50,602 nucleotides of DNA from Actinomycetota bacterium (GTDB lineage Bacteria > Actinomycetota > Actinomycetes > Actinomycetales > Microbacteriaceae). The stretch is taken from the NCBI GenBank assembly GCA_005778835.1, contig SXMG01000090.1:1-50602 (forward strand), read 5' to 3'. Positions 12,528 through 38,805 of the stretch are shown here, one piece after another; positions within the stretch are counted from its first letter, which is position 1, and each line of letters begins with the position of its first letter. Under the pieces are notes generated by a model, which was not told the DNA's origin, did not search any database, and saw only the letters and a program-made list of their open reading frames with translations. Made by a program: the position numbers and the translations under genes.

Positions 12528-12546
12528 TGTTCATCTTTACTGAACA
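12528..12546. promoter_or_regulatory. Candidate operator TGTTCA-TCTTTAC-TGAACA
   Basis: Perfect 6-N7-6 inverted repeat just upstream of the 12562 CDS. Confidence 0.6.
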
Positions 12547-12561
12547 TGTGAGGAGAGAGCG

Positions 12562-13614
12562 ATGGCGCTCGACCACCTGAAGATCGCGATCGTCGGCACG
12601 GGTGCCGTCGGCGGGTCGGTCGCAGCCGACCTGATTCGCGCGGGTCTCGATGTCACGGTGATCGACCAGTGGCCCGACCATGTCGAGGCGATGCGCGCTC
12701 AGGGGCTCACCGTGCACCTGCCGACCGAGACTCAGGTGACGCCGGTGCCGGCGCTGCACCTGTGCCAGGTCGCCGAGCTGCGCGAGCCCTTCGACATCGT
12801 GCTCACGGCAGTGAAGACCTATGACACCCGCTGGGTGGCCGAGCTCATGAAGCCGCTCCTGCGCCCTGACGGAGTCTTCGTGGGGCTGCAGAACGGCATG
12901 ACCATCGACCATGTCGCCGAGATCGTCGGGGCCGAGCGCACGATCGGCTGCGTGCTCGGCATCGCGGCGAACCTGCGCACACCGGGCGTCATCGTGCGTC
13001 AGGTCTCGCCTGCCGACACGTGGTTCTCGGTCGGCACGCTGAGCGGGGAGCGCACCGAGCGCCTCGACCAGGTCGCCGCGGTGCTCGCGCCCGCCGCCGA
13101 GATCGTCGTGACCGACGACATCCGCTCGGCGAAGTGGATGAAGCTCATCGCCAACAGTCCCGAGATGCTGCCCTCGGGGCTGCTGGGAGTGCCCCTGCTC
13201 GAGGCAGCGCGCACTCCGGGCATCAGGCCCGTCATGGATGCGATGTCGCGCGAGGCGTACGCGCTCGCGATCGAGCTCGGCATCACGATGATGCCGTCGC
13301 TCGGCATCGCGGCAGACGACATGCCCGACTCGGATCAGTACGCGCTCGACCTGCTCGACCGCGTGCTGTCGCACTTCTCGCAGCCCGACACGCGCGTCGC
13401 GGTGCTGCAGGACTGGGAGAAGGGCCGCCGGGCCGAGCTCGATGCTTTCAGCGGGTACATCGTCGCGAAGCGTGCGGAACTCGGAGGCAGCGCGCCCGTC
13501 AACGAGCAGATCCTGCGGCTCTCCGAGCGCGTCGAACGCGGCGAGCTCGTTCCAGTGCCCGAGAACGCACCGTTGCTCATGGCCGCGCTCGAAGGTGCTC
13601 GTACGCCCGCTTGA
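12562..13614 (+). CDS. 2-dehydropantoate 2-reductase (ketopantoate reductase) family protein
   Basis: IVGTGAVGGSVAADLIRAGLDVTVIDQWPDHVEAMR; WMKLIAN; C-terminal RRAELDAFSGYIV. Confidence 0.85.
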   Translation: MALDHLKIAIVGTGAVGGSVAADLIRAGLDVTVIDQWPDHVEAMRAQGLTVHLPTETQVTPVPALHLCQVAELREPFDIVLTAVKTYDTRWVAELMKPLLRPDGVFVGLQNGMTIDHVAEIVGAERTIGCVLGIAANLRTPGVIVRQVSPADTWFSVGTLSGERTERLDQVAAVLAPAAEIVVTDDIRSAKWMKLIANSPEMLPSGLLGVPLLEAARTPGIRPVMDAMSREAYALAIELGITMMPSLGIAADDMPDSDQYALDLLDRVLSHFSQPDTRVAVLQDWEKGRRAELDAFSGYIVAKRAELGGSAPVNEQILRLSERVERGELVPVPENAPLLMAALEGARTPA

Positions 13615-13641
13615 CAGCAGACCATGCGATCGCATTGACTA

Positions 13642-13660
13642 TGTTCACTAAGGCTGAACG
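13642..13660. promoter_or_regulatory. Candidate operator TGTTCA-CTAAGGC-TGAACG
   Basis: Same 6-N7-6 architecture as 12528, upstream of the bicupin gene. Confidence 0.55.
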
Positions 13661-13711
13661 CGTCGAACTGCCGCGGAGCCCCACTGAGCAGACACCACGA
13701 AGGAGTCGATG

Positions 13712-14602
13712 ATGACCCGCTATGTCGTCCGTACGGCCGACGAGGCCGACTACCGCGACCCCGGGGCGCTCGCCCCCGACTCGCACGGCTACTCGCGCTG
13801 GTGCGCGGTCGGGTACGCCGACGGCGCGGTGCACACCGACTTCGGCATGTCGCGGCTCGAGCCCGGCGGCGCCGTGCCGACGCACGTGCACTCGTTTGAA
13901 GAGTCGTTCCACCTCGTCGAAGGCGAGGTGCTGCTCGTGACGCCCGAGGCGACCGTGCACCTCGTCGCGGGCGACTACGGCGTCATTCCGCTCGGGGTTC
14001 CGCACTCGTGGCACTCGATCGGCGACGCCCCGGCGGTCTGGAGCGACATCTACTCGCCACCGCCGCGCATCGAGCACGGCTCGGACACCTATCGCGTCGC
14101 CGACCTCGCGCCGGGTGAGCCCATTAAGGTCGACCCGCGCGACCCGCGCACGCGCTCGTTCGGGGCGATCACGACCGAGCAGATGAACCCCGGCAAGCAG
14201 TCTCAAGAGCTGCTTGCGCAATCGGCCAGTATGCGCACCGCCCTGCTCGTCTACAGCGGCATCTCGCTGAAGATGATGGTCGACAGCGATCTCGGCTCGG
14301 TGCTGCACACCATGTTCATGGTGCAGTACGAGCCGACCGGCGTCGCGGGCCCGCACGACCACCCGCTCGAAGAGGCCTACTTGATCATGGACGGCGAGGT
14401 CGACGCGACCTTCGACGGCCACGAGGTGCGGATGAAGCCCGGCGACATCGCCTGGGCGGGCGTCGGCTGCGTGCACTCGTTCCGCGCAGTCGGCGAACCG
14501 GTTCGGTGGCTCGAGACGCAGTCGCCCCAGATGCCCGCGCGCCATGCGTACCGGTTCGCCCGCGACTGGACCTATCTGACCGACAAGCTCGGCTCGGCCT
14601 GA
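13712..14602 (+). CDS. Bicupin protein ((S)-ureidoglycine aminohydrolase-like fold)
   Basis: Two cupin modules: PTHVHSFEESFHLVEGEVLL...GVPHSWH and GPHDHPLEEAYLIMDGEVDATF...GCVHSFR. Confidence 0.75.
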   Translation: MTRYVVRTADEADYRDPGALAPDSHGYSRWCAVGYADGAVHTDFGMSRLEPGGAVPTHVHSFEESFHLVEGEVLLVTPEATVHLVAGDYGVIPLGVPHSWHSIGDAPAVWSDIYSPPPRIEHGSDTYRVADLAPGEPIKVDPRDPRTRSFGAITTEQMNPGKQSQELLAQSASMRTALLVYSGISLKMMVDSDLGSVLHTMFMVQYEPTGVAGPHDHPLEEAYLIMDGEVDATFDGHEVRMKPGDIAWAGVGCVHSFRAVGEPVRWLETQSPQMPARHAYRFARDWTYLTDKLGSA

Positions 14603-14645
14603 CCGAGCCCGCTTCGCACCAGACAGCAACGCTCAAGGAGGAGCA

Positions 14646-15353
14646 GTGACTCAGCGCACGATCGCCGTCATCGGCGGAACATCCGGCATCGGCCTCGAGA
14701 TCGCGAAGGAGGTTGTCGCCCGGGGCGACCGCGTCGTGCTGACCGGCCGCGATCAGACGCGTGCCGACGCCATCGCGCGGTCGATCGGCGAGAGTGCCAC
14801 GGGCCTCGCGCTCGACATCTCCGAGCCCGAGTCGATCGCCGAGAGCCTCGCGAGCGTCGAGCAGGTGCACGGCCTGGTGCTCGCCGCGATCGAGCGCGAC
14901 GCCAACACCGTGCGCGAGTACGACATCACACGGGCGCGACGGCTCGTGACCCTCAAGCTCGTCGGCTACACCGAGACGGTGCACACCCTGCTCGACCGGC
15001 TCGAGCCGACCGTCGACACGGGCATCGTGCTGTTCGGCGGTCGCGCGAAGGACGCACCGTACCCGGGTTCGACGACCGTGGCGACGATCAACGGCGGTGT
15101 CGAGGGCCTCGTGCACTCGATGGCGCTCGAGCTCGCCCCCATGCGCGTCAACGGCCTGCACCCCGGCATCATCGGCGACAGCCCGTTCTGGGCCGACAAG
15201 CCGGCGGCGGTGCTGCAGGGCTACGAGTCGCGCACGCCGGGCGGCAAGCTCGCCACCATGGCCGACATCGTGGGCGCCACGATGTTCCTGCTCGGCAACC
15301 GCGGAGTCTCGGGCACGAGCCTCTACGTCGACCGCGGCTGGCGGCTCACCTAG
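14646..15353 (+). CDS. SDR-family oxidoreductase
   Basis: GTG start; AVIGGTSGIGLEIAKEVVARGDRVVLTGRD Rossmann motif. Confidence 0.85.
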   Translation: MTQRTIAVIGGTSGIGLEIAKEVVARGDRVVLTGRDQTRADAIARSIGESATGLALDISEPESIAESLASVEQVHGLVLAAIERDANTVREYDITRARRLVTLKLVGYTETVHTLLDRLEPTVDTGIVLFGGRAKDAPYPGSTTVATINGGVEGLVHSMALELAPMRVNGLHPGIIGDSPFWADKPAAVLQGYESRTPGGKLATMADIVGATMFLLGNRGVSGTSLYVDRGWRLT

Positions 15354-15397
15354 ATTCGTCTGTCTCCACTAGATATATCCACGCGCATCGACTTATC

Positions 15398-15416
15398 ATT
15401 TCACCAGGGCTGTACA
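15398..15416. promoter_or_regulatory. Degenerate operator copy ATTTCA-CCAGGGC-TGTACA
   Basis: Matches the TGTTCA-N7-TGAACA pattern with mismatches; upstream of amidohydrolase 1. Confidence 0.35.
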
Positions 15417-15420
15417 GATG

Positions 15421-15439
15421 CGTGCACCTTTACTGAATT
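15421..15439. promoter_or_regulatory. Degenerate operator copy CGTGCA-CCTTTAC-TGAATT
   Basis: Shares CTTTACTGAA with the 12528 operator. Confidence 0.35.
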
Positions 15440-15458
15440 GCTCAACGAGGAGGAACTC

Positions 15459-16895
15459 ATGACCGACGCCGCTCCCCGCGCCGCGGACTTCACACCCGGA
15501 CGGCCCGTCGTCTTCCGCAACGCGACGGTGATCACCGTCGATGCTGCTGGCGTTCTCGAGAACGCCGACGTCTTGATCACGGATGACACCATCGCCGCCG
15601 TCGGTCATTCGCTCGAGGTGCCCGCAGGCACGCTCGAGATCGACGCCAAGGGCGGCATCCTCATGCCGGGCATGATCGACACGCACCGGCACATGTGGCA
15701 GACCGCTCTGCGCGGCTACGGCGGAGACTGGGCGCTCAGCCAGTACTTCGTCTTCTACTACCTGACGTGGGGCCACGTCTTCCGCGCGGAGGACATCGCG
15801 GCCGGCAACCAGCTCAGCGCGCTCGAGTCGATCGACGAGGGTGTCACGACGACCGTCGACTGGTCGCACGCCCTGCGCACGCCCGAGTACGCCGACGCGG
15901 CAGTGGAGGCTCTGCGCAGCATCCCCGGTCGATTCGTGCTCGCGTACGGCAACTACCTCGGGGCTCCGTGGGAGTGGATGAACGAGCCCGGCTTCCAGTC
16001 GTGGGTCAAGAACTTCAAGGCCGACGACATGATGGGCCTGCAGGTGGCCTTCGATGTCAACTCGGGCCCTGACTTCCACGAGAAGGGCGCCTTCGAGGCG
16101 GCTCGCGACCTCGGCTTGCGGGTCACCACGCACGCGGGCGTCTGGGGCGTCAACGGCGACCCCAACATCGAGCTCATGTACGACCACGGGTTCATGGACG
16201 ACACGGTCACCTACGTGCACGCGAGCTCGCTCGGTCCCGAGAGCTACCACAAGATCGCCGCCACGGGCGGAACGATCTCGATCGCGACCGAGAGCGAGCA
16301 GAGCGCCGGCCAGGGCTACCCCTCGGCCTGGGTCGCGAAGAAGTACGGCATCACCGCGTCGCTGTCGATGGACACGAGTGTGTGGTGGAGTGCCGACTTC
16401 TTCTCGGCCATGCGGGCGACCCTCAGCTCGTTCCGCTCGCGCGACCACCTCGAGGCTCACCTCAAGGGCGAGACGGTGAACGTCAACCGCATGAAGGCCG
16501 AAGACGCGGTCTGGCAGGCGACCATGGGCGGTGCGCACACGCTCGGCATGGCTGACAAGCTCGGCTCGATCACCGTGGGCAAGAAGGCCGACCTCGTGCT
16601 GCTCAAGAACGACGAGTCGCCCGCCATGACGCCCGTCCTCAACCCGTACGCGCACGTCGTGTACCAGGCGGGAACGGCCGACGTGCACACGGTGGTCGTC
16701 GACGGCAAGGTCGTGAAGTACAACGGCGAGCGCATCGGACTGCCCCTCAAGCCCGTTGCCGACCGCGTCGCCGCCTCGGTCGAGCACGTGCGCAGCGAGC
16801 TCGGCGAAGAGGCTTGGGCCGAGTGGATGAACCCCGCTCTGCCCGAGGACGAGCCGATCGCGAACCCCTACATGTACCTCGACGAGGAGAAGTAG
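15459..16895 (+). CDS. Amidohydrolase family protein (paralogue 1)
   Basis: GMIDTHRHMWQTALRG, VTTHAGVWG, TYVHASSLG, ASLSMDTS; AGGAGG upstream of ATG. Confidence 0.85.
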   Translation: MTDAAPRAADFTPGRPVVFRNATVITVDAAGVLENADVLITDDTIAAVGHSLEVPAGTLEIDAKGGILMPGMIDTHRHMWQTALRGYGGDWALSQYFVFYYLTWGHVFRAEDIAAGNQLSALESIDEGVTTTVDWSHALRTPEYADAAVEALRSIPGRFVLAYGNYLGAPWEWMNEPGFQSWVKNFKADDMMGLQVAFDVNSGPDFHEKGAFEAARDLGLRVTTHAGVWGVNGDPNIELMYDHGFMDDTVTYVHASSLGPESYHKIAATGGTISIATESEQSAGQGYPSAWVAKKYGITASLSMDTSVWWSADFFSAMRATLSSFRSRDHLEAHLKGETVNVNRMKAEDAVWQATMGGAHTLGMADKLGSITVGKKADLVLLKNDESPAMTPVLNPYAHVVYQAGTADVHTVVVDGKVVKYNGERIGLPLKPVADRVAASVEHVRSELGEEAWAEWMNPALPEDEPIANPYMYLDEEK

Positions 16896-16910
16896 GACAG
16901 CTGATCGATC

Positions 16911-16950
16911 AGAAACGGGGGCGTGCCGACAGCGGCGCGCCCCCGTTTCT
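16911..16950. terminator. Bidirectional hairpin terminator
   Basis: 17-bp stem AGAAACGGGGGCGTGCC/GGCGCGCCCCCGTTTCT with one G.T wobble, 6-nt loop, between convergent CDSs. Confidence 0.75.
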
Positions 16951-16961
16951 CGTGTGTGACG

Positions 16962-18008
16962 TCAGCGCGACGCCAGCGCCAGCAGCACGTCGGCGTTGCT
17001 CGGGTGAGGCGCGAGCACACCGCGCTCGATGCGCCGGGCGACCTCGACGAGGGCGTCGTTGGCCGGGGTGGCGATGCCGAGTTCGGCACCCCTCCGCGCG
17101 ACGAGGCCGTTGAACTGCTCGGCCTCGCTGCGACGGCCCTTGCGCCAATCGTGCAAGACGGTGGTCGTCGTGCTCGGCAGCACGAAACCCGCATAGAGAG
17201 CATCCAGCAGCACCTCGACGAGCGCATCGACGCGTGCGACGTCGTCGTCGTCGAGGCCGAAGATCGGCAGGACCGCCCGGCCGTCGCGCACGCCCACCTC
17301 GAGGGCCTCGTTGCCGGCGCGCACCATGAGCTCGCGCATGCCCGGGGTCTCCAGTGCGGCGATCATCGGCAGACCGAGCGCGGCGGTCGACACGAGCGTC
17401 GTGCAGTTGCTCACGAGCTTCATCCACTTCGCCGACAGGATGTCGTCGACGATCGCCACGGTGCCGGCATGCTCGAGTACCGCGGCGGCTTCCGCCAGTC
17501 GCGGATGGCCGTCGGCAGTGAGCGCGCCGAGGGCGAACCACGACCGATCGGCGGGCGTGTGGCGCATGACAACACCGGGCTCATCCATCTCGCTGGAGAC
17601 CTCGATGACGCAGCCGAGGGTGCGGTGGGTGCCGACGACCTCGGCGATCGTCGTCGCCGTCATCCCGTTCTGCACGCCGATCAGCAGACCGTCGGCGGCG
17701 AGGTGCGGTTCTATGAGCCGCGCGGCCCACCCGGCGTCGTACGCCTTCATCAGCATGAGCACGATGTCGAACGGTTCGCGGAGAGTGGCGACCTCGCACA
17801 GGTGCAGGGTCGGAAGGCGCGTGACCGTCTCGCCGCCCGGCATGACCACGCGCAACCCGTCGCGGCGGATGGCCTCGACGTGCGCGGGCCACTGCTCGAT
17901 GAGGGTCACGTCGACGCCCGCACGAGCGAGGTCGGCGCCGATGCCGCCGCCGTTCGCGCCCGCCCCGAGTACTGCGACCCGCAGCGGCCGCTGCTGGTCA
18001 CGCGTCAT
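16962..18008 (-). CDS. 2-dehydropantoate 2-reductase family protein (paralogue 2)
   Basis: MTRDQQRPLRVAVLGAGANGGGIGADLARAGVDVTLIEQWPAHVEAIR; WMKLVSN. Confidence 0.83.
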   Translation of the reverse strand: MTRDQQRPLRVAVLGAGANGGGIGADLARAGVDVTLIEQWPAHVEAIRRDGLRVVMPGGETVTRLPTLHLCEVATLREPFDIVLMLMKAYDAGWAARLIEPHLAADGLLIGVQNGMTATTIAEVVGTHRTLGCVIEVSSEMDEPGVVMRHTPADRSWFALGALTADGHPRLAEAAAVLEHAGTVAIVDDILSAKWMKLVSNCTTLVSTAALGLPMIAALETPGMRELMVRAGNEALEVGVRDGRAVLPIFGLDDDDVARVDALVEVLLDALYAGFVLPSTTTTVLHDWRKGRRSEAEQFNGLVARRGAELGIATPANDALVEVARRIERGVLAPHPSNADVLLALASR

Positions 18009-19036
18009 CGCGAACCACCGGCCAGAAGCTCGTCGAGCAAGTGGATGCCCCGCTCGAGCTCGCCCCGCTCGATCTTCTCGGCGAGCGCGACGACGTGCGC
18101 GTTGACGGGAGCACGATCGCCGGCAGCGGCCAGCACGTCGACCACGAGGCCGTTCAGTTCGCGGTACTCCGACCGTCGACCCTTCATCCAGTCCTGCAGC
18201 ACCGTCGTGCGCGTGTCCGGCAGCGAGTACTTGTCGAGCACTTCGCCGAGCAGCCGAGCAGCGTAGCCGTCGGGGTCGGTGAGTTCGTCGTCGCTCAAGC
18301 CGAAGATGCTCACGAGCCGGCTGCCGTCGGCGAGTGCAGCCCGTGCCGCCTCGGCCCCGCACACGATCATGAAGTCGTGCACTCCCGGCAGCCGGACGGC
18401 GTCGGCGAGCGGGAGGTCGAGGATCGCGGAGGGCACGAGCTCGCCAGCGTTGGCGACGAGCTTCATCCACTTCGACGAGCGGATGTCGTCGGAGACCTCG
18501 ACAGTGCCGGTGCAGCTCATGATCTCTCTGACCTCGTCAGCGCGAGCATGGGCGCGCGGGTCGGTGCCGCCCACCGCGAACCACGAGTCGGCCGGGGCGT
18601 TCTGCCGGTTCACGATGCCGGGCTCGAACATGTTCGACGCCATCTCGATCACGGCCCCGAGCGTGCGATGCGCTCCGACAGCCGCGGCGATGTCGTCCAT
18701 GGTCATGCCGTTCTGCACACCGACGACGACGCCGTCGTCGGCAAGCAGTGGCGCGATCAGTGCGCACGCCCACCGGGTGTCGTAGGCCTTCACGAGCAGC
18801 AGCACGATGTCGAACGGCTCGCGCAGGGTCGCGACATCGCAGAAGTGCACGGGCTGGGCTGGCGTGACGACCGTCTCGAGTGGGAGCCGCACTTCGATGC
18901 CACGCCTGCGCATGGCGTCGACGTGGGCGGGCCACTGCTCGATGAGGGTCACGTCGTGACCGGCGCGGATCAGGTCGGCGCCGATGCCGGCCCCTTGGGC
19001 TCCCGTGCCGAGAACGGCTATACGGGGTCTGGTCAT
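18005..19036 (-). CDS. 2-dehydropantoate 2-reductase family protein (paralogue 3)
   Basis: MTRPRIAVLGTGAQGAGIGADLIRAGHDVTLIEQWPAHVDAMR; start overlaps stop of paralogue 2. Confidence 0.83.
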   Translation of the reverse strand: MTRPRIAVLGTGAQGAGIGADLIRAGHDVTLIEQWPAHVDAMRRRGIEVRLPLETVVTPAQPVHFCDVATLREPFDIVLLLVKAYDTRWACALIAPLLADDGVVVGVQNGMTMDDIAAAVGAHRTLGAVIEMASNMFEPGIVNRQNAPADSWFAVGGTDPRAHARADEVREIMSCTGTVEVSDDIRSSKWMKLVANAGELVPSAILDLPLADAVRLPGVHDFMIVCGAEAARAALADGSRLVSIFGLSDDELTDPDGYAARLLGEVLDKYSLPDTRTTVLQDWMKGRRSEYRELNGLVVDVLAAAGDRAPVNAHVVALAEKIERGELERGIHLLDELLAGGSR

Positions 19037-19179
19037 GGAAGAGCCTCCTTGCTCTGGCTGGCACTGTGTCACGTCGACTCCGCCCGTTCAGTCCGACAGA
19101 ACGAACTGGGTGCGTCTGCCCCTCGTGCCGGGGGAGCACACGCCGGAATGTGGCACTTGCAGGGGCGGCGACCCCCGTG

Positions 19180-19198
19180 TGTAAAGTATGGCTGAAAC
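19180..19198. promoter_or_regulatory. Degenerate operator copy TGTAAA-GTATGGC-TGAAAC
   Basis: TGT..A-N7-TGAA.. pattern in the divergent 19036/19310 region. Confidence 0.3.
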
Positions 19199-19214
19199 TC
19201 AAAGGAGAGTCAGC

Positions 19215-19313
19215 GTGAACACTATCGACCCGGCGCCATCGCGTCGACCCCTGCGTCGACGAAGCGGCCACTCCTGCGCAGCGCAGCGCAACGGAGGTCG
19301 AGCTCGCGCATGA
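19215..19313 (+). CDS. Short leader ORF (32 aa), translationally coupled to the downstream ADH
   Basis: AAAGGAGAG then GTG; VNTIDPAPSRRPLRRRSGHSCAAQRNGGRARA*; TGA overlaps ADH ATG (ATGA). Confidence 0.35.
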   Translation: MNTIDPAPSRRPLRRRSGHSCAAQRNGGRARA

Positions 19314-20365
19314 GAGCGCTCGTGTTCCGTGGGGCGGCAGGCGCTGAGGTCGAGAGCATCCCGGTACCTGTGCCCGGGCCCGGTGAGGTGCTCGTGCGCG
19401 TCGCCGTGTGCGGCGTGTGCGGCAGCGATGCCGCCGAGCTCGATCACGGGCCGACTCTCACCTCGCCCCCTGTCGTGCTCGGTCACGAGTTCGCCGGAGT
19501 CGTCGAGTCGGTCGGCGCGGGCGTGTCGACGCTGGCGCCCGGAGCGCGCGTCGTCTGCGGAGCTGGCATCTCGTGCGGCGAGTGCCGGCCGTGCTCGCAG
19601 GGCCGCACCAACCTCTGCGTGCAGTACCGCACCGCAGGACTGCAGATCGACGGCGGCCTCGCTGAGTACGCCGTCGTGCCAGCATCGACGCTTCTCGACG
19701 TGACCGATTCGGGGCTGCCGCTCGACACTCTCGGTCTCGCGCAGCCGATGTCGATCGCCGTGCACGCCGTGCGGCGCAGCGGGCTGCGCGAGGGCGATGA
19801 CGCGATCATCGTGGGTGTCGGAGGCATCGGCGCATTCCTGACCGTCGCTGCCTCGGCGCTGGCGGCGCGGGTGCTCGTCGTCGATCTCGATCCCGAGCGG
19901 CTCGAACTGGCGCTGCGCCTCGGAGCCGACCACGTCATGAACGCGCGTGAAGGATCGCTCGCCGACCGCATCGAGTCGCTAGGGCTCCACCCCGATGTTC
20001 TCTTCGAGGTCAGCGGCACCAAGCCCGGGCTCGACTCGGTGCTGGGCGCCGCGCGACCAGGCTCGACCATCGTGCCGCTCGGCATTCAGCGCGACGACGT
20101 CGCGGTGCCCCTCGCGCAGTGGACGGTGCGCGAGTACACCGTGATCGGTACGAACGCGCACGTGTTCGCCACCGACCTGCCCGACGCGGTTCGACTGCTC
20201 GCGACGAGAGACGACTGGAGCGACATCGCCCCGCTCGTGATCCCGCTCGACGACGCGGTCGCCGACGGCATCGAGCCGATCCGAACCGGCACGGCGCACC
20301 GCATCAAGACACTTGTCGACCCCACGATCCGGGCCGCGCGAGCGGCCGATCACCGAAGGAGCTGA
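19310..20365 (+). CDS. Zinc-dependent alcohol dehydrogenase / MDR family
   Basis: GHEFAGVVESVGAGVSTLAPGARVVCGAGISCGECRPCSQGRTNLC; VGVGGIGAF. Confidence 0.87.
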   Translation: MRALVFRGAAGAEVESIPVPVPGPGEVLVRVAVCGVCGSDAAELDHGPTLTSPPVVLGHEFAGVVESVGAGVSTLAPGARVVCGAGISCGECRPCSQGRTNLCVQYRTAGLQIDGGLAEYAVVPASTLLDVTDSGLPLDTLGLAQPMSIAVHAVRRSGLREGDDAIIVGVGGIGAFLTVAASALAARVLVVDLDPERLELALRLGADHVMNAREGSLADRIESLGLHPDVLFEVSGTKPGLDSVLGAARPGSTIVPLGIQRDDVAVPLAQWTVREYTVIGTNAHVFATDLPDAVRLLATRDDWSDIAPLVIPLDDAVADGIEPIRTGTAHRIKTLVDPTIRAARAADHRRS

Positions 20366-20368
20366 ACC

Positions 20369-21799: not shown

Positions 21800-21838
21800 C
21801 GCGGCCCCACTGAACACCGCAGCCCCGATCTGGGCTGT

Positions 21839-21857
21839 TGTTCAACTATGATGAACA
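21839..21857. promoter_or_regulatory. Candidate operator TGTTCA-ACTATGA-TGAACA overlapping a TATGAT -10-like element
   Basis: Perfect 6-N7-6 inverted repeat upstream of amidohydrolase 3 and the ABC operon. Confidence 0.6.
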
Positions 21858-21975
21858 AAAGTGTAAGCAAGGCTTGACTAGCGTTCAGTCACACTTCTAC
21901 GATGACGGCAGTACACCACGACGCGATGCGGCGCCCCTGGGCGACGTGTCGCCCGATACAGGAGTCAATGACGAC

Positions 21976-23361
21976 ATGAGCACCCGTACCCTGCTGCGTG
22001 GCGGCACTGTGATCACCTCGGCGCGAGCCGGCGAGGTCCTCCCCAACACCGACATTCTCATCGGCACCGACGGCACCATCGAGGCCATCGGCCACGGCCT
22101 CGACGCCGCCGATGCCGCGGTCATCGACGTGACCGGTCGCATCGTGCACGCTGGCTTCGTCGACACCCACCGCCACACCTGGCAGTCGGTCGTGCGGCAC
22201 GTCGCCTCCGACTGGTCACTGACCGAGTACCTCGCGGGCCTGCACACGGGGCTCAGCAAGTACTTCCGCCCCGAAGACACCTACACCGGCAACTACCTCG
22301 GAGCCCTCGAGGCGCTCGATGCGGGCATCACGACGCTCGTCGACTGGTCGCACAACCTGGCGACGCCGGCACACGCGGATGCCGCGGTGCAGGCGCTCAT
22401 GGACACCGGAATGCGAGCGGTCTTCGCGCACGGTGGCGGCGCGCAGCAGTGGGGCGCGCTGCCGTCGACCAACAACCACCCGGCGGAGGACGCGCGCCGC
22501 GTGCGCGACCAGTACTTCAGCTCGGACGACCAGCTGGTGACGATGGCGCTCGCCCTGCGCGGTCCGCAGTTCGTCGTCCCCGAGGTCAACACGCACGACT
22601 TCCAGTTAGCGAAAGATCTCGACCTGCGCGTGACGATGCACGTCGGCGACGGCTACTGGGGCAAGTCAGGCCCGGTCCGCAAGCTGAAAGAAGAGGGCCT
22701 GCTCTCTGACCGCATCACCTACGTGCACTGCAACACGCTCGGAGACGACGAGCTCGACATGATCGCCGGTTCCGGAGGCACCGCTTCGGTCTCGCCCGAT
22801 GTCGAGATGCAGATGGGTCACGGCTACCCGGCGACCGGTCGCCTGCTCAAGGCGGGCATTCGCCCCACCTTCTCGATCGATGTCTGCAGCTCGAACGGCG
22901 GCGACATGTTCGGCACGATGCGCACCGCGATCGGCATGCAGCGGGCGCTCGACAACGCGCCGAGCGTCGAGACCGGCGAGGTGCTGCAGCGCATCGGCCT
23001 GAGCGTCACCGAGGTCATGCAGTTCGCCACCATCGACGGTGCCCACGCGGCCGGTCTCGACCACCGCACCGGCTCTCTCGAGGTCGGCAAGGCCGCCGAC
23101 ATCGTCGTGCTCGACGACCGATCGCTCGCGCTCACCCCGATGAACAACCCCATCGGCGCTGTCGTCTACTCCGCTCACCCGGGCCTCGTGCGCGACGTGT
23201 TCGTGCAGGGTCGCCAGGTCAAGAAGGATGGCGTGCTCGTCGGTGTCGACGTCGCGGCCCTCCGGGCGCGGGCCGAGGCGTCGCGCGACTACATCGTCGG
23301 TGAGATGCCCGAGGCCAAGCTCGACGGCACGTGGCACCCTGACCTGGCCCCGCAGGCCTGA
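21976..23361 (+). CDS. Amidohydrolase family protein (paralogue 3)
   Basis: MSTRTLLRGGTVITS start; GFVDTHRHTWQSVVRH, VTMHVGDGYWG, YVHCNTLG, FSIDVCSSNGGD. Confidence 0.85.
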   Translation: MSTRTLLRGGTVITSARAGEVLPNTDILIGTDGTIEAIGHGLDAADAAVIDVTGRIVHAGFVDTHRHTWQSVVRHVASDWSLTEYLAGLHTGLSKYFRPEDTYTGNYLGALEALDAGITTLVDWSHNLATPAHADAAVQALMDTGMRAVFAHGGGAQQWGALPSTNNHPAEDARRVRDQYFSSDDQLVTMALALRGPQFVVPEVNTHDFQLAKDLDLRVTMHVGDGYWGKSGPVRKLKEEGLLSDRITYVHCNTLGDDELDMIAGSGGTASVSPDVEMQMGHGYPATGRLLKAGIRPTFSIDVCSSNGGDMFGTMRTAIGMQRALDNAPSVETGEVLQRIGLSVTEVMQFATIDGAHAAGLDHRTGSLEVGKAADIVVLDDRSLALTPMNNPIGAVVYSAHPGLVRDVFVQGRQVKKDGVLVGVDVAALRARAEASRDYIVGEMPEAKLDGTWHPDLAPQA

Positions 23362-23366
23362 GCGTC

Positions 23367-24404
23367 ATGACTGCCGTTCAGCAGAGCCCGCAGGGTCGGC
23401 CCGAGATCGTCGATCGTGCCTCCCTCGCGCGCACCGTGTGGTCGTGGCCGGGAATGCGTGCTTTCGTGGCTGTGGTGCTGCTGTTCGCGGTGAGCCCGCT
23501 CATCGCTCTCGGCAGTGTCAGCGAGACCGCGATCATCTCGATGCTGCCGTTCGCTGCGCTGACGGCCATCGTCGCGATCGGCCAGACGCTCGTCATCCAG
23601 CAGGGCGGGCTCGACCTCTCGGTTCCCGGGGCAATCACCTTGAGCGCCCTCATCGTCGCCAAGTTCGGGGCCGACGAAGACTGGGGCTTGAGCACCGCGA
23701 TCGTCGTCGCCATCGTGGCGACGTCGCTCTTCGGCATGCTGAGCGGTGTCGTGATCGCGGTCTTCGGTCTGCCGCCGCTCGTCGTGACGATCGCAAGCAA
23801 CGCCCTCATGATCGGTGCGGTTCAGGCGATCTCGGGGGGCTTCAACGCCCAGACGACCGATGAGCTCAGCAGCTTCGCTCTCACGAGAGTGGCGGGGGTG
23901 CCGGTGCTGGCGTGGTTCGCGCTCGTGATCGTGATCGCCGTGCACATCGTGCTCAAGGGCACGCGCGTCGGCCGCCGATTCGAGCTCGTCGGTGAGAACC
24001 CGCGCAGCGCGGCCAACATCGGCGTCGCGACGCGGGGCTACATCATCTCGGCCTACTGGCTCTCGACCGCACTCGCCGCTGCGGGCGGCGTTCTCCTCGC
24101 CGGCCTGCTGCGGTCGCCGACTCTCACGGCCGGCAACGACTACCTGCTGCCTTCGATCGCTGCGGTGGTGCTCGGCGGCACCGCCCTCACGGGCGGCCGG
24201 GGAAGCATCGTCGGCACCGCCCTCGGGGCCCTCTTCCTCGCACAGCTCAGCCAGTTGGTTCAGACCTTCACGCAGGCGACCGCTGTGCAGAACATCGTCC
24301 AGGCGCTCATCATCGGCGTCGGGATTGTCGCCCAGCTCCAGCTGGGCGGCAACAGCGGACGGCTCAAGAGCCTGTTCCGCCTTAACCGCAACACCCATCC
24401 CTAG
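23367..24404 (+). CDS. CUT2-type (ribose/simple-sugar-like) ABC transporter permease
   Basis: Multi-TM; IGQTLVIQQGGLDLSVPGAITLSA; LLPSIAAVVLGGTALTGGRGSIVGTALGAL. Confidence 0.88.
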   Translation: MTAVQQSPQGRPEIVDRASLARTVWSWPGMRAFVAVVLLFAVSPLIALGSVSETAIISMLPFAALTAIVAIGQTLVIQQGGLDLSVPGAITLSALIVAKFGADEDWGLSTAIVVAIVATSLFGMLSGVVIAVFGLPPLVVTIASNALMIGAVQAISGGFNAQTTDELSSFALTRVAGVPVLAWFALVIVIAVHIVLKGTRVGRRFELVGENPRSAANIGVATRGYIISAYWLSTALAAAGGVLLAGLLRSPTLTAGNDYLLPSIAAVVLGGTALTGGRGSIVGTALGALFLAQLSQLVQTFTQATAVQNIVQALIIGVGIVAQLQLGGNSGRLKSLFRLNRNTHP

Positions 24405-24431
24405 CACCAACGACTCAATGAGGAGTGTGCA

Positions 24432-25619
24432 ATGAGCACCACAACCATGGGCAGAAGGCTCATCCCGGTGGCATCCGCCGCCGCGGTCGCCGCGATCATC
24501 CTTGCCGGATGCACGTCGACCAACGCCGAGGCACCCGAAGAAGGCGGCGTCGCCAACAACCTCCAGGCTGACATCGCCGCGGGCTCGGTCGGCACGGTCG
24601 ACCAGTTCATCTCGATGGACGACGTCTGCCCGACCGAGGGCGACCCGATCACCGTCGGCGTTGTCGACGGCATCGGCACGAACAGCTGGTCGAAGACCGT
24701 GCTGGCCGAGATCGAGAGCGAAGCGGCGCAGTGCGAGCTCATCGAGAGCGTCGAGTTCGTCGCCGGTCTCTTCGACCTCGAGACGACCACGAGCGGCATC
24801 ACGAGCCTCGCAGCCAAGGGCACCGACATCATCCTGGTGATCCCGGACGCCGGTCCGGGCGAGGCGCACCTTCCTGCGATCCGTCAGGCGACGCAGGCGG
24901 GCTCGATCGTGATCAACTTCGCTGCCGACCCGCAGGGTCAGGCCGGAGTCGACTACCTCGACTACACCGACCAGTCGCCGAAGTTCGTCGGCATCTCGAA
25001 GGCCGAGTGGCTCGTCGACCAGCTGGGCGAGGAAGGCGGCAACATCGTGTTCCTCGGCGGCCCCGCCGGTGCACTGGTCTCGACGCAGGAGTTCGAGGGC
25101 CTGCAGGAGGTTCTCGCCGAGAACCCGCAGCTCACCCTGCTCACTCCTGAGCCCGTCGTCACCAACTGGGACCCGGCGCAGGCGCAGCAGGCCATGGCCG
25201 GTCTGCTCTCGCAGTTCCCGGAGATCGACGCGATCATCGCCGACTACGGCGCAGCAGCTGCCGGCGTGATCCGCGCCTACGAGGCCGCGGGACTCTCGCT
25301 GCCGCTGGTCACGACGACCGACGACAACTCGCTGAGCTGCAACTTCGACGCTCTCAAGGAGACCAACCCGGCCTACGAGCTCGCGACGGTCTCGTCGCGC
25401 ACGTGGATCGGTCGCGTCGCCCTCCGCAAGGCCGTCGCAGCGTTCTACGGCGGCTCGAACCCTGAGCCGTCGATCTACAACCTGGCGATCGTCGAAGACT
25501 CGACGGGCACCGCTCCGGGATCCATCCTGCCGAGCGAGGCCTGCCTGCCGGACGCGCCGCCGGACGCCACGCCGTCGACGCTGCTGACGGCTGACGAGAT
25601 CAACGCGCTGTTCAACTAA
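24432..25619 (+). CDS. Sugar-type ABC transporter substrate-binding lipoprotein
   Basis: Lipobox AAIILAGCTS; periplasmic-binding-protein-like fold residues; in operon with permeases. Confidence 0.85.
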   Translation: MSTTTMGRRLIPVASAAAVAAIILAGCTSTNAEAPEEGGVANNLQADIAAGSVGTVDQFISMDDVCPTEGDPITVGVVDGIGTNSWSKTVLAEIESEAAQCELIESVEFVAGLFDLETTTSGITSLAAKGTDIILVIPDAGPGEAHLPAIRQATQAGSIVINFAADPQGQAGVDYLDYTDQSPKFVGISKAEWLVDQLGEEGGNIVFLGGPAGALVSTQEFEGLQEVLAENPQLTLLTPEPVVTNWDPAQAQQAMAGLLSQFPEIDAIIADYGAAAAGVIRAYEAAGLSLPLVTTTDDNSLSCNFDALKETNPAYELATVSSRTWIGRVALRKAVAAFYGGSNPEPSIYNLAIVEDSTGTAPGSILPSEACLPDAPPDATPSTLLTADEINALFN

Positions 25620-25633
25620 CAACGAAAGAACCG

Positions 25634-28129
25634 ATGACCATGGACACCGCCCTCTCTCTCACGGGAATCACCAAGATCTATCCAGGGGTGCGCGCGCTCG
25701 ACGATGTCAGCGTCACCGTCGCCCCCGGTAAGGTCCACGCGATCCTCGGCGAGAACGGAGCGGGCAAGTCCACGCTCGTCGGAATCGCCGCGGGGTCGGT
25801 CGTGCCTGATGCAGGCACGATCGGCCTCGCCGGCGACGAGCTTCCGCGCATGTTCCCGCGCGATGCTCGCGAGCGGGGGCTGGCGATCGTCTACCAGACC
25901 CCTGCTCTCGCACCGGCACTGTCAGTGCTGGATGCCGTGCTGCTGCTGCTCCCCGAGTCGAAGCGACCGGCGCGCAAGAACGCCGCAGCCTGGCTGTCAT
26001 CCCACTTCACGACTCTCGGGCTGCGGGTCGACCCCGGCGCGCTCGTCTCGAATCTCTCGTTGCGCGACGCTCACCTGGTCGAGATCGCCGCGGCGCTCGC
26101 GAGCGACCCGAGTGTGCTCGTTCTCGACGAGCCCACCGAAGCTCTCGGCCCTGAAGAGACTCGCTGGTTGTTCGACCGCATCGCCGATCTGCTCGCGAGC
26201 GGCACGGCCATCGTGTACATCACGCACCGCATTCCCGAGGTGATCGAGATCGCGACCGATCTCACCGTCTTGCGCGACGGCCGCGTCGTCGGCCGCGGTC
26301 TCGTCGCCGACTACACCGAAGAGCAGATCGTCGAGCTCATCGTCGGTCGCTCGCTCGAGACGACCTTCCCCGACAAGGCGGTCGTCGAGCCCGACGCTGA
26401 CGACGTCTACGCCGTGACTCGCATCACGGGCCAGGGCTTCACCGAGGTCAGCTTCGCCGCACGCCCCGGCGAGGTCATCGGCCTTGCGGGTGTGGAGGGC
26501 AACGGCCAGCGCGAGGTTCTGCGCGCCCTGGGCGGGCATGGACTCACCGACGGGTCTGTGGCGCTCGGAGGTCACCAGATCTCGGTGCGCTCGCCCCGGG
26601 CTGCCAAGCGAGCCGGCGTCGTCTATCTTCCCGGCGACCGCATCGGCGAGGCCATGTTCGGCAAGATGACCATTCGCGAGAACGTCGTCGCCCCCAACCT
26701 CACCGACGCCATGCCGTTCGGCATCGTGAACCGGCCCAAGGAGTACGAGCTGACGCGCAAGGCCATCGGCGGTCTCGCGGTCAAGACTCCGAGCCTCGAG
26801 ACACCCATCGTCTCGCTCTCGGGCGGCAGCCAGCAGAAGGTGCTGCTCGCCCGCGCCCGTCTCGGCAACCCGCGCGTGCTGCTCGTCGAAGACCCCACAC
26901 AAGGAGTCGACGCGGGCGCTCGCGTCGAGATCTACTCGTTCTTGCGGGCGATGGCGGCGTCGGGCGTCGTGGTCGTCGTGCTGTCGACCGATGCTGTCGA
27001 GCTCGAGGGTCTGTGCGACCGCGTGGTCGTGTTCTCGCGCGGCCGAGTGCAGACGGTGCTCAACGGCGATGACGTCACCGAGCGCGCCATCACCGGGGCA
27101 GCAGTACTGTCGACCGATACCTCGGAGTCGACGACGATCACTGCTGATAGCGGTCAGCGGCGCCGACGACTGCCACTGGGCCCCGGGGGAACACAGGCGA
27201 CGATTCTGCTGGCGCTCGCGCTCACGCTGAGCATCGCGACGACCCTCGCGTCGTCGGCCTTCCTCAGCCCGTTGAACCTGAGCCAGCTGCTCGCCGCGTC
27301 ATCCGTCATCATCCTGGTCGGCCTCGCGCAGCTGCTCGTGGTCATGACCGGCGGCATCGACCTCAGCATCGGTTCGGTGGTCGCGCTGTCGACGGTCGTC
27401 ATCTCGTTCTTCGGGCAGGGAGGCCCCGGGCTCTTCGCTCTTGGCGTCGTGCTCGCGATCGTCGCGGGACTGGTTGTCGGCATCATCAATGGTCTGCTCG
27501 TGACCCGTCTCTCGCTGCCGCCCGTCATCGCGACCCTCGTCACCTCGATCGCGGTCGTGGGTGTTGCGCAAGTGATGCGGCCCGCTCCGGGCGGCTCGGC
27601 CACGGGCGACATCATGGCGGCCGTGGGCCTGGTCGTCGCTGGTGTGCCGGTCGTGCTCATGATCGCCGTCATCATCGCGGTCGCCCTCTGGTACGTCATC
27701 GAGCGCACGACGCTCGGCCGGGGGCTGCGTGCCGCGGGCTCCGACCCCATCAAGGCCAACCGGATGGGTGTCAACGTCGACCGCATGCGATTCCTGGCGA
27801 GTGTCGGCGCTGGCACGCTCGCAGCGATCGCCGGTCTCATCCTTTACACGCGCACCGGCATCGGCGATGCGAACACCGGTCAAGCGCTGACTCTGACCTC
27901 GGTGACCGCGATCGTCATCGCCGGGGCGAGCATCTTCGGCGGTTCGGGTTCGGCCATCGCAGTCGCCGCGGCCGGTCTGCTGCTGCAGACGATCACGAGC
28001 GCCTTGAGCTTCTTGTCGCTCGGTCTGTCATGGCAGTACTGGCTGCAGGGCATCTTCGTGATTCTGGCGGCACTGATCCCGATCGTCGCCGCGTGGCGCA
28101 AGGGGCGAGCTGGGCCGCGCTTGAGGTAG
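25634..28129 (+). CDS. Fused ABC ATPase (RbsA-like, N-terminal) and permease (RbsC-like, C-terminal)
   Basis: 831 aa: GENGAGKSTLV...LDEPTEAL...LSGGSQQKVLLARARL then TM domain LAQLLVVMTGGIDLSIGSVVALS...IVIAGASIFGGSGS. Confidence 0.9.
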   Translation: MTMDTALSLTGITKIYPGVRALDDVSVTVAPGKVHAILGENGAGKSTLVGIAAGSVVPDAGTIGLAGDELPRMFPRDARERGLAIVYQTPALAPALSVLDAVLLLLPESKRPARKNAAAWLSSHFTTLGLRVDPGALVSNLSLRDAHLVEIAAALASDPSVLVLDEPTEALGPEETRWLFDRIADLLASGTAIVYITHRIPEVIEIATDLTVLRDGRVVGRGLVADYTEEQIVELIVGRSLETTFPDKAVVEPDADDVYAVTRITGQGFTEVSFAARPGEVIGLAGVEGNGQREVLRALGGHGLTDGSVALGGHQISVRSPRAAKRAGVVYLPGDRIGEAMFGKMTIRENVVAPNLTDAMPFGIVNRPKEYELTRKAIGGLAVKTPSLETPIVSLSGGSQQKVLLARARLGNPRVLLVEDPTQGVDAGARVEIYSFLRAMAASGVVVVVLSTDAVELEGLCDRVVVFSRGRVQTVLNGDDVTERAITGAAVLSTDTSESTTITADSGQRRRRLPLGPGGTQATILLALALTLSIATTLASSAFLSPLNLSQLLAASSVIILVGLAQLLVVMTGGIDLSIGSVVALSTVVISFFGQGGPGLFALGVVLAIVAGLVVGIINGLLVTRLSLPPVIATLVTSIAVVGVAQVMRPAPGGSATGDIMAAVGLVVAGVPVVLMIAVIIAVALWYVIERTTLGRGLRAAGSDPIKANRMGVNVDRMRFLASVGAGTLAAIAGLILYTRTGIGDANTGQALTLTSVTAIVIAGASIFGGSGSAIAVAAAGLLLQTITSALSFLSLGLSWQYWLQGIFVILAALIPIVAAWRKGRAGPRLR

Positions 28130-28214
28130 CGCCGGGCGCCCTTTCCCGGGCGCTCAGGCGAGTTGGTCACAATGAGGTCGAGTCATCGAGATTCTGTCAA
28201 CGAGAGTGGAGATC

Positions 28215-29597
28215 ATGAAGAGCACCGGAACAACCGGCACGAACGGCGTCGACTGGGAGGCGCGCATCGATTTCGATCGCCTCCGGGATGAACGGCTCAC
28301 GAAGCTCAAGGCCGAGCTAGACCGTTCCGACGTCGGCGCGCTGCTCGCCTTCGACTTCTCGAACATCCGCTACATGACCGCGACGCACATCGGCACGTGG
28401 GCGATGGACAAGCTGATCAGGTTCAGCCTGCTGACCCGCAACACCGACCCCATCTCGTGGGATTTCGGCTCGGCGGCGAAGCACCACAAGCTCTACAACC
28501 CGTGGCTCGACGTGACGACCTCGGAGATGGACGCCGACCCGCATTCGCCGCACGAGGGTGCGAAGCGGCCCCGGCTCGAGAGCGGCGCCCGCGCCGGCAT
28601 CTCGACGTTGCGCGGAGCCTTCCCGCCCGACGCCGGCATCGCCGAGGAGGTCGCCCGCAAGGTGAAGCGCGAGCTCGAGAAGTTCGGGGTCGCCGACCAG
28701 CCTCTCGGCGTCGATGTGATCGAGCTGCCCATTCTGTTCGCGCTGCAGAAGGAGGGCATCCAGGTCGTCGACGGTCAGCAGATCTTCCTCGAGGCGCGTC
28801 GCATCAAGACCCACGATGAGATCCGGCTGCTGACGCAGGCGGCGTCGATGGTGGATGCGGCCTACGAGAACCTCTACGAGTTCCTCCGGCCCGGCGTGCG
28901 CGAGAACGAGGCCGTCGGTCTGGTGGCGAAGACGCTGTACGACCTCGGCTCCGAGTACGTCGAGGGCGTCAACGCGATCTCGGGTGAGCGGTGCTCGCCC
29001 CACCCGCACGTGTTCAGCGACCGGCTGATTCGCCCGGGCGACCCCGCGTTCTTCGACATCCTGCACAGCTACAACGGGTACCGCACCTGCTACTACCGCA
29101 CCTTTGCAGTCGGGTCGGCTAGCCGCGCGCAGAAGGACGCCTACACGCGGGCTCGCGAGTACATGGATCGCGCGATCGCGCTCGTGAAGCCCGGCGCGAC
29201 CACCGCCGACATCGTCGCGGTCTGGCCGAAGGCCGAGGAGTTCGGATTCCCCGACGAAGAGGCGGCGTTCGCGCTGCAGTACGGCCACGGCGTGGGTCTC
29301 TCGATCTGGGAGAAGCCGATCTTCTCGCGCCTGACCTCGTTCGATCACCCCGAGCTCATCGAAGAGGGCATGGTCTTCGCCCTCGAGACCTACTGGCCGG
29401 CCTCGGACGGATGGGGTGCCGCGCGCATCGAAGAGGAGGTCGTCGTCACGGCGACCGGGTGCGAGGTCATCACGAAGTTCCCGGCCGAAGAGCTGCTCGT
29501 CGCGGGCAAGCGCTACTACGCCGTCGGCGGCGAGCTCAGCACGCTGCGCGACTCGCAGTCGCACCTCAACACGACCGACGGTCGCGGCGGCCACTGA
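28215..29597 (+). CDS. M24 / creatinase-fold family protein (paralogue A)
   Basis: FSNIRYMTATHIGTW; FFDILHSYNGYRTCYYRTFAVG; QYGHGVGL; ALETY; RIEEEVVVT. Alternative start 28206. Confidence 0.82.
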   Translation: MKSTGTTGTNGVDWEARIDFDRLRDERLTKLKAELDRSDVGALLAFDFSNIRYMTATHIGTWAMDKLIRFSLLTRNTDPISWDFGSAAKHHKLYNPWLDVTTSEMDADPHSPHEGAKRPRLESGARAGISTLRGAFPPDAGIAEEVARKVKRELEKFGVADQPLGVDVIELPILFALQKEGIQVVDGQQIFLEARRIKTHDEIRLLTQAASMVDAAYENLYEFLRPGVRENEAVGLVAKTLYDLGSEYVEGVNAISGERCSPHPHVFSDRLIRPGDPAFFDILHSYNGYRTCYYRTFAVGSASRAQKDAYTRAREYMDRAIALVKPGATTADIVAVWPKAEEFGFPDEEAAFALQYGHGVGLSIWEKPIFSRLTSFDHPELIEEGMVFALETYWPASDGWGAARIEEEVVVTATGCEVITKFPAEELLVAGKRYYAVGGELSTLRDSQSHLNTTDGRGGH

Positions 29598-29599
29598 CC

Positions 29600-29638
29600 A
29601 GCGGGCGGCGGGAGCACGCTTCGTCCCCGCCGCTCGCT
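29600..29638. terminator. Hairpin terminator between convergent genes
   Basis: AGCGGGCGGCGGG / CCCGCCGCTCGCT stem with one G.T wobble. Confidence 0.65.
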
Positions 29639-29654
29639 TGCTGCGCGTGCGGGC

Positions 29655-30548
29655 CTACAGCCCGCTGCGGCGCCGGGTGATCTCGGCGACGGCCGACCAG
29701 TCGAGCGCACTGAGGTCAGCGTCGGCCAGGGCTGCTTCGAACAGCTCGTGCAGCACGGGCGCGATCGGCAGCGATACCCCGCGCTCGGCCGCCGCGGCCT
29801 CGGCGAGGCCGAGATCCTTCAGGCCGAGCGACATGGCGAAGCCGACCGGCTCGTAGCGCTTCTCGGCGATGATCGGCGCGTAGCCCTTGTGGGCAGCGCC
29901 GCTGAAGGCCGTGTGGGTCAAGATCTCAACGAACTCGCTCGCGTCGATGCCCGTGGCCTCGACGAGCGACACCGATTCGGCGATCGACTGCATGGCGCTG
30001 ATCAGGCTGTAGTTCACGGCGATCTTCACGACGCTCGCCATCGCGACGTCGTCGCCGAGGTTCCACGTCTTCTGGCCGAGTGCCTCCAAGGACGGCATCG
30101 CGGCGGCGACCGCTGACGGATCTCCGGAGGCGACCACCAGCAGGCCTCCCGTCGCCGCGATCGTCGAACGGCCGAGCACGGGCGCCTGTACGTAGCCGAC
30201 GCCGTGACGCGCGTGCCGCTCCGCGAGCTCGTGGGCCGCGGACGGGCTGATCGTGGAGTGGTTTATGTGCACGCGGCCGGGCGGCACCGAGGTCAGCAGC
30301 TCGTCGTCGAAGACGGAGAGCAAAGCGGCGTCGTCGGCGAGCATCGAGTGCACGAGCTCGCAGGCGCCGAACGCTTCGGCGGGCGACGAGGCGACCGTGA
30401 CACCCTCACGAGCGGCCAGCGCGTCGATCGCGGGCCGGCTGCGGTTCCAGATCGTGACGCCGTAGCCCTCGTCGAGCAGCCGGGAGACCATGCCGGCGCC
30501 CATGGCGCCGAGCCCGAGGAAGGCGACGACAGGGGAGGTCGCGCTCAT
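29655..30548 (-). CDS. NAD(P)-dependent oxidoreductase, 3-hydroxyisobutyrate dehydrogenase-like
   Basis: VAFLGLGAMGAGMVSRLLDEGYGVTIWNRS; GxxGxG and HINHSTISPSAA. Confidence 0.85.
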   Translation of the reverse strand: MSATSPVVAFLGLGAMGAGMVSRLLDEGYGVTIWNRSRPAIDALAAREGVTVASSPAEAFGACELVHSMLADDAALLSVFDDELLTSVPPGRVHINHSTISPSAAHELAERHARHGVGYVQAPVLGRSTIAATGGLLVVASGDPSAVAAAMPSLEALGQKTWNLGDDVAMASVVKIAVNYSLISAMQSIAESVSLVEATGIDASEFVEILTHTAFSGAAHKGYAPIIAEKRYEPVGFAMSLGLKDLGLAEAAAAERGVSLPIAPVLHELFEAALADADLSALDWSAVAEITRRRSGL

Positions 30549-30633
30549 CGCTCGCCTCGAGCGTCGAGCGGAGTGCGATGCCGTGCTGGATCCACGATGA
30601 TCCTCCTCGTCGGGCGGTGGGCGATCACCGCTC

Positions 30634-30658
30634 CAGTGTACAGCAGCACTTCACACTG
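30634..30658. promoter_or_regulatory. Candidate operator CAGTGT-N13-ACACTG (GTGT-N13-ACAC family)
   Basis: Perfect 6-bp half sites in the divergent 30548/30815 intergenic region. Confidence 0.45.
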
Positions 30659-30720
30659 CTCCGGGTCGACGGATTCTGCGAACCTGCCGGGAAGCAGAAA
30701 GCAAGGCCGACGGGAGGGTT

Positions 30721-30739
30721 CGCTCGACTATGCTGAACG
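30721..30739. promoter_or_regulatory. Degenerate operator copy CGCTCG-ACTATGC-TGAACG next to palindrome GGTGAACGTTCACC
   Basis: Shares ACTATG.TGAAC with the 21839 operator; upstream of XRE-cupin regulator 1. Confidence 0.35.
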
Positions 30740-30814
30740 TCAGGTGAACGTTCACCATCACTGACGACCTGACTGACCCTCAGGGCGGCACAGTGCGGCG
30801 CGAGAGGGGCAGCG

Positions 30815-37656: not shown

Positions 37657-37677
37657 GTGTAAACACACAAAGAACAG
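37657..37677. promoter_or_regulatory. Candidate operator, minus strand CTGTT-N11-TACAC (GTGT-N13-ACAC family, one mismatch)
   Basis: Plus strand GTGTAAACACACAAAGAACAG, upstream of the ABC operon start at 37612. Confidence 0.4.
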
Positions 37678-37722
37678 ATTCGCCAGCGTTGTGGCAGATT
37701 TGTTATGTAAGAGAGAACGAAT

Positions 37723-38751: not shown

Positions 38752-38772
38752 GTGTTGCGCACAGCCGTACAC
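38752..38772. promoter_or_regulatory. Candidate operator GTGTT-N11-TACAC
   Basis: GTGTTGCGCACAGCCGTACAC upstream of XRE-cupin 2, same architecture as 38646. Confidence 0.45.
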
Positions 38773-38805
38773 TGTTGACGAACACCCAAGGAATGGATTG
38801 TCACC

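Follow-up and report, generated by a model that had tools for sequence, protein, structure and literature searches.

The window, as we call the whole 50,602-nucleotide stretch of DNA analysed here, belongs to a draft genome (G000) of 2,465,148 bases in 168 contigs that is 81% complete and is placed in Microcella by its closest relatives. Its plus strand carries the genes for a KPR-like (ApbA/PanE fold) oxidoreductase (12562..13614), a bicupin protein (13709..14602), amidohydrolase 1 (15459..16895) and amidohydrolase 3 (21976..23361; PRK08204 family, above cut-off), the last followed by permease, binding-protein and ABC genes. The gene of a HIBADH-like NAD-binding dehydrogenase (29655..30548, minus strand) is divergent from xre1 (30815..31543, plus strand), which encodes XRE-cupin 1, a protein with HTH_3 at 9-63 and Cupin_2 at 127-197 (Pfam; 54 bits against a cut-off of 23 and 55 bits against 27.2, respectively). 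These metabolic genes are the predicted targets of the operator described below. On the minus strand, two tandem paralogs of the KPR-like gene at 12562 occupy 16962-19036 and break up the plus-strand operons; the corresponding position in a related genome, G276, gives a partial match only (67% over 96 aa, L046:8960-9247). We note that the M24-family (DddP/creatinase-like) protein encoded at 28206-29597 is 80-97% identical across many genera, most of its neighbours being far less conserved, which by sequence comparison appears unusually strong for a catabolic enzyme without a known substrate.

The first-pass annotation had described two perfect copies and one near-perfect copy of TGTTCA-N7-TGAACA upstream of the KPR-like, amidohydrolase 3 and bicupin genes, and the sequences are exactly as claimed. 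All three predicted operators are written on the plus strand. The perfect copy at 12528..12546 (TGTTCA-TCTTTAC-TGAACA) is centred 25 bp upstream of the KPR-like gene, the copy at 13642..13660 (TGTTCA-CTAAGGC-TGAACG, one mismatch) 58 bp upstream of the bicupin gene, and the perfect copy at 21839..21857 (TGTTCA-ACTATGA-TGAACA) 128 bp upstream of amidohydrolase 3 (start about 21976) and its transport operon, where it overlaps a -10-like TATGAT (21847-21852). They are the sole matches in the window at up to two mismatches (0.36 expected), and three such matches were reached in 3 of 100 shuffled windows. Taken alone, three strong copies in the window are only modestly unlikely, and comparative data are therefore needed.

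Of 300 genomes of the family, 66 encode relatives of XRE-cupin 1. From 18 of these 66 we took neighbourhoods spanning up to 20 kb and added 45 named loci drawn from genome contigs (most of them Microcella, Agromyces and Microbacterium, with a few Nocardioidaceae), which after duplicate removal left 61 loci of 1.11 Mb with 102 kb of intergenic DNA, some of them closely related, so that the counts are not independent. With a spacing of 7, their intergenic DNA holds 9, 38 and 99 matches at zero, up to one and up to two mismatches, and their coding DNA 0, 0 and 8; at each of the remaining spacings between 0 and 15 there are 0-1 intergenic matches at up to one mismatch and 2-12 at up to two. Among all 5-mer inverted repeats with spacings of 0-15, GTTCA-N7-TGAAC ranks first (27 observed versus 0.05 expected), in an enumeration independent of the motif as first described; that motif was the seed consensus for the training sites of a matrix, built from 58 sites outside Microcella and having the consensus TGTTCASYNNNRSTGAACA. 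Applied to the window, this matrix places 21839, 12528 and 13642 at ranks 1, 2 and 3 (25-29 bits), and its best 15 positions are all intergenic in a window with an intergenic share of only 6%; 1000 column-permuted matrices gave a mean of 3.5 and a maximum of 10 intergenic positions out of 12.

The position of the sites is likewise conserved. The orthologs of the KPR-like gene have theirs at -25/-26 in L046 and L164, and the counterparts of 21839 lie at -123 to -130 from amidohydrolase 3 in L099, L046, L053, L058 and L060. Sites are found upstream of six of seven bicupin genes (the window gene included), 11/14 amidohydrolase 3 genes (several at -123 to -130), 9/14 KPR1 genes and 9/12 HIBADH genes (that of the window, with its site at 30637, among them), in contrast to 1 in 12 ALDH genes and 1 in 30 GntR genes of the same neighbourhoods.

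A similar density of the motif at random non-promoter positions, which the first-pass annotation had named as evidence against an operator, was not seen, either in the coding DNA of the 61 loci or in G000. Pattern and profile searches of G000 served as the genome-wide test: at up to one mismatch there are three matches in 2.47 Mb, all in the window, and 0 in the remaining 2.41 Mb; at up to two mismatches there are 17, versus 3 for the reversed control. With a length of 19 bp, a sequence-only profile has little power (best E 0.69), but from G000 it returned the three window sites and C62:265 only. Across the 300 family genomes, consensus counts give no clear distinction between carriers and non-carriers, since the background at one mismatch already comes close to one match per genome; the association is therefore a local one.

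Some sites outside the island deserve mention. The sequence AGTGCAGTTAGGCTGAACA at G000:C62:264-282 (L011:264-282) lies directly 5' of the start codon of a fumarylacetoacetate-hydrolase-like gene, and the identical 19-mer occurs in the congener G190 (C48:40556-40574); it may mark a distant regulon member or simply a leaderless promoter. In two Microcella genomes, TGTTCAGCCAGAATGAACG occurs outside the island (G074:C1:1056120-1056138, or L163:6121, and L105:13280), 5' of a gene whose product, judged by eye, resembles the NAD(P) transhydrogenase alpha subunit. A similarly built near-palindrome, TGTTCGGCTTTGTCGAACA at G000:C13:24887-24905 (L004:1501), sits just 5' of a LysR-like gene and probably belongs to a different regulator.

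The four weaker copies of the first-pass annotation (15398, 15421, 19180 and 30721) all rank within the top 13 of about 50,600 window positions; 30721 did not hold up as an operator. The first two, 15398..15416 (ATTTCA-CCAGGGC-TGTACA, rank 7) and 15421..15439 (CGTGCA-CCTTTAC-TGAATT, rank 10), are the upstream and downstream members of a predicted plus-strand tandem pair 5' of amidohydrolase 1, and conservation in Microcella orthologs confirms them independently: the pair recurs as ATTTCA-N7-TGTACA and CGTACA-N7-TGAATT at exactly -52/-29 in the window and in eight further loci of Microcella, where the half-sites hardly change and the spacers vary (amidohydrolase 1 in the Microcella locus L046 falls below the score threshold). 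Between the divergent KPR3 (minus) and ADH (plus) genes, 19085..19103 (CGTTCA-GTCCGAC-AGAACG, rank 6) and 19180..19198 (TGTAAA-GTATGGC-TGAAAC, rank 9, 5' of ADH) are plausible operators; Microbacterium relatives of KPR3 have sites at about -31 to -34, and 19180 was picked out almost entirely by its matrix score.

The intergenic region between the HIBADH-like gene and xre1 contains a predicted operator at 30637..30655 (TGTACA-GCAGCAC-TTCACA, rank 5), with the HIBADH-like gene as its predicted target and with related sites in the same intergenic region of L046, L048, L100, L101, L104, L106, L107 and L114. Alignment of xre1 upstream regions places the -10-like TATGCT of xre1 (30729..30734, plus strand) inside the rank-13 copy at 30721, and among orthologs the hexamer is largely conserved and the operator half-sites are not. 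Just 3' of this -10 lies a probable autoregulatory operator at 30749..30767 (plus strand, CGTTCA-CCATCAC-TGACGA), which is degenerate and scores weakly with the matrix (7.5); most xre1 orthologs keep its left half and spacing, and its counterpart in Agromyces (L104 and L114) reads TGTTCA-N7-TGAAAC/G. The alignments thus make 30637 and 30749 the likely xre1 operators, in place of 30721. Further candidates, called mainly by matrix score, are 37701..37719 (TGTTAT-GTAAGAG-AGAACG, rank 4), 5' of the second ABC transporter operon (minus strand), 37658..37676 (TGTAAA-CACACAA-AGAACA, rank 11, matrix only) in the same promoter region, and 38766..38784 (CGTACA-CTGTTGA-CGAACA, rank 8), 5' of XRE-cupin 2, which has one weak counterpart in G276 (L047). 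The sites at 19085, 30637, 30749, 37701, 37658 and 38766 are additions to those of the first-pass annotation.

XRE-cupin 1, which had been put forward as the candidate regulator, combines the N-terminal HTH_3/XRE and C-terminal Cupin_2 domains of XRE-cupin transcription factors and, as is also characteristic of them, has a palindromic operator nearby and metabolic genes as neighbours. Its nearest solved relative by sequence is 1y9q, with a match mainly in the HTH. The recognition helix SxSL[LI]SQVETGKTxPSVSTLY is near-invariant among members of the XRE1 clade, which span 47-100% identity, and XRE2 has a different one. Loci of the XRE1 clade have 0.37 sites (up to one mismatch) per intergenic kb, and nine loci with XRE1-like paralogs (helix type SQIENGKSQPSV in most) have 0.49, whereas 12 loci with M24a, GntR, ALDH or XRE2-type genes and without an XRE1-type regulator have 0 sites in 21.4 kb; the loci were collected around XRE1, so that neighbourhood genes co-occur with it, and the controls address GntR, M24a, ALDH and XRE2 rather than every neighbour. 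Genome-wide at up to one mismatch, four XRE1-bearing congeners have 1-5 matches, and there are none in G137 (neither XRE1 nor GntR) or in G236 (GntR 76%, XRE2 76%, no XRE1), where one KPR relative retains only the weak site TGTTCTGCGTCAAAGAACG at -25. This co-occurrence, the helix and the negative controls argue for XRE-cupin 1 as the regulator. The code is not private to it, since sites also accompany paralogs whose helix is similar: L145:13182, L146:16319 and L153:16157 are strong operator copies in loci that show no XRE-cupin other than a paralog of 35-37% identity with the helix SQIENGKSQPSV, which suggests a binding code common to the XRE-cupin family.

Other owners of the operator have to be weighed against XRE-cupin 1. 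Most of the neighbourhoods analysed also retain the GntR/FCD-like regulator encoded at 40953-41648, whose orthologs lie near many XRE1 loci; nevertheless, six loci with GntR and no XRE1-type regulator (L149, L150 and L159-L162) show no match at up to two mismatches, the 76% identical GntR of G236 is accompanied by none genome-wide at up to one mismatch, and the GntR genes themselves nearly always stand without a site, so that we consider its ownership very improbable. We give an equally poor chance to XRE-cupin 2 (38806-39528), or both XRE-cupins jointly, as the binder. Its architecture is that of XRE-cupin 1, and candidate sites lie 5' of its gene in the window and in G276, but its recognition helix is different (SASHVSQVERGLASFSVRALY) and XRE2-bearing loci without XRE1 (L159 and L162) have no sites; binding by XRE-cupin 2 is thus not supported by these comparisons. 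That the sites would be chance inverted repeats, or a compositional effect of promoters, is the reading to which we give almost no credence: promoters are A+T-richer and the window shuffles do occasionally yield three matches, but the motif is conserved, is tied to a single spacing and, at up to one mismatch, never falls in coding DNA, and the spacing test in the 61 loci already refutes chance.

A different question is what XRE-cupin 1 would do once bound. At some promoters, such as that of amidohydrolase 3 (128 bp), it might be an activator or dual regulator, given that a number of sites keep a conserved distance of 120-130 bp to the start codon and that LfsT is an XRE regulator with both effects (PMC9769523). 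Against this, many sites are 25-60 bp away from the start codon, where they adjoin or overlap -10-like hexamers; the 21839 site itself contains TATGAT, and for P. aeruginosa the XRE-cupins have been described as acting exclusively as inhibitors (PMC7901475). We therefore hold either role to be improbable.

We consider it likely that TGTTCA-N7-TGAACA, refined to TGTTCASYNNNRSTGAACA, is the operator of XRE-cupin 1, and that this protein acts as a dimeric, ligand-released local repressor of several catabolic operons. Several island operons have the inverted repeat overlapping or adjoining their core promoters, and a dimer that occupies it would block their transcription; the set would comprise the KPR-like gene, the bicupin gene, amidohydrolase 1 with its tandem pair, amidohydrolase 3 with the transporter genes, the HIBADH-like gene and xre1 itself. 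Binding of a pathway substrate or intermediate to the cupin domain would release the repressor, and the operons would be induced together. In loci where a single gene flanks the site, the median distance between site centre and start codon is 60 bp (interquartile range 36-127). TAnnnT hexamers close to sites are commoner on the gene-facing strand than on the opposite strand, as at 21847; both features fit a dimer that occludes the core promoter. The earlier suggestion that overlap with -10-like hexamers points to repression is supported by these gene-facing hexamers and, by analogy, by the Pseudomonas XRE-cupins, which act locally through palindromic operators to repress neighbouring genes of catabolism and transport, and for which release on binding of a pathway metabolite to the cupin has been proposed (PMC7901475). 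We infer a similar mode of release for XRE-cupin 1.

XRE-cupin 1 has the same architecture as PuuR, the putrescine utilisation repressor of Escherichia coli. The puuA-puuD region of E. coli contains the half-site TGAACA, with AAAATATAATGAACA at the puuD start, a 15-mer that is reportedly the PuuR site (Nemoto et al. 2012); unlike the sites described here, the TGAACA copies of the puu region are not TGTTCA-N7-TGAACA palindromes. XRE-cupin 1 scores 67.3 bits against the PuuR equivalog model (NCBIfam NF007408; cut-off 211), and it is thus probably PuuR-like in its action without being PuuR. Its window neighbours are KPR-like, bicupin, amidohydrolase, M24, HIBADH-like and ABC genes, with no puu-type genes for gamma-glutamylated putrescine among them. 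PauR, PsdR and ErfA of P. aeruginosa share with XRE-cupin 1 the HTH and Cupin_2 domains, palindromic operators, neighbouring catabolic or transport targets and suspected autoregulation (PMC7901475), whereas XRE-cupin 1 belongs to an actinobacterial clade with an operator of its own and several operons of one island as predicted targets. The LfsT motif, NAACN(5,8)GTTN, has AAC/GTT half-sites and a similar spacer size, but its arms are reversed (AAC...GTT rather than GTT...AAC), and LfsT is a Pseudomonas regulator with other targets (PMC9769523). Among the papers searched, none was found that reports the TGTTCA-N7-TGAACA operator.

In sum, the operator and its predicted regulon are well supported as a further case of the known XRE-cupin repressor switch. 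It is conceivable, though we lean against it, that the TGAACA half-site is read by an SQ(V/I)E(T/N)GK(T/S)xPSV helix common to XRE-cupin repressors from actinobacteria to enterobacteria, and that the island is a multi-operon regulon for an undescribed pathway. Were this so, the operators and regulons of many uncharacterised XRE-cupins would be predictable from the helix alone, and one target promoter here would be tuned by conserved weak tandem sites. For a regulator clade that is uncharacterised and occurs in many Microbacteriaceae and some Nocardioidaceae, the analysis provides a concrete operator and a list of predicted targets, and it ties amidohydrolases, a bicupin, KPR-like proteins and an M24-family protein, whose substrates are not known, into one putative co-regulated pathway. 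The inducible switch would also offer a route to the substrate, as a compound that releases the protein from its site is likely to be the substrate or an intermediate of the pathway.
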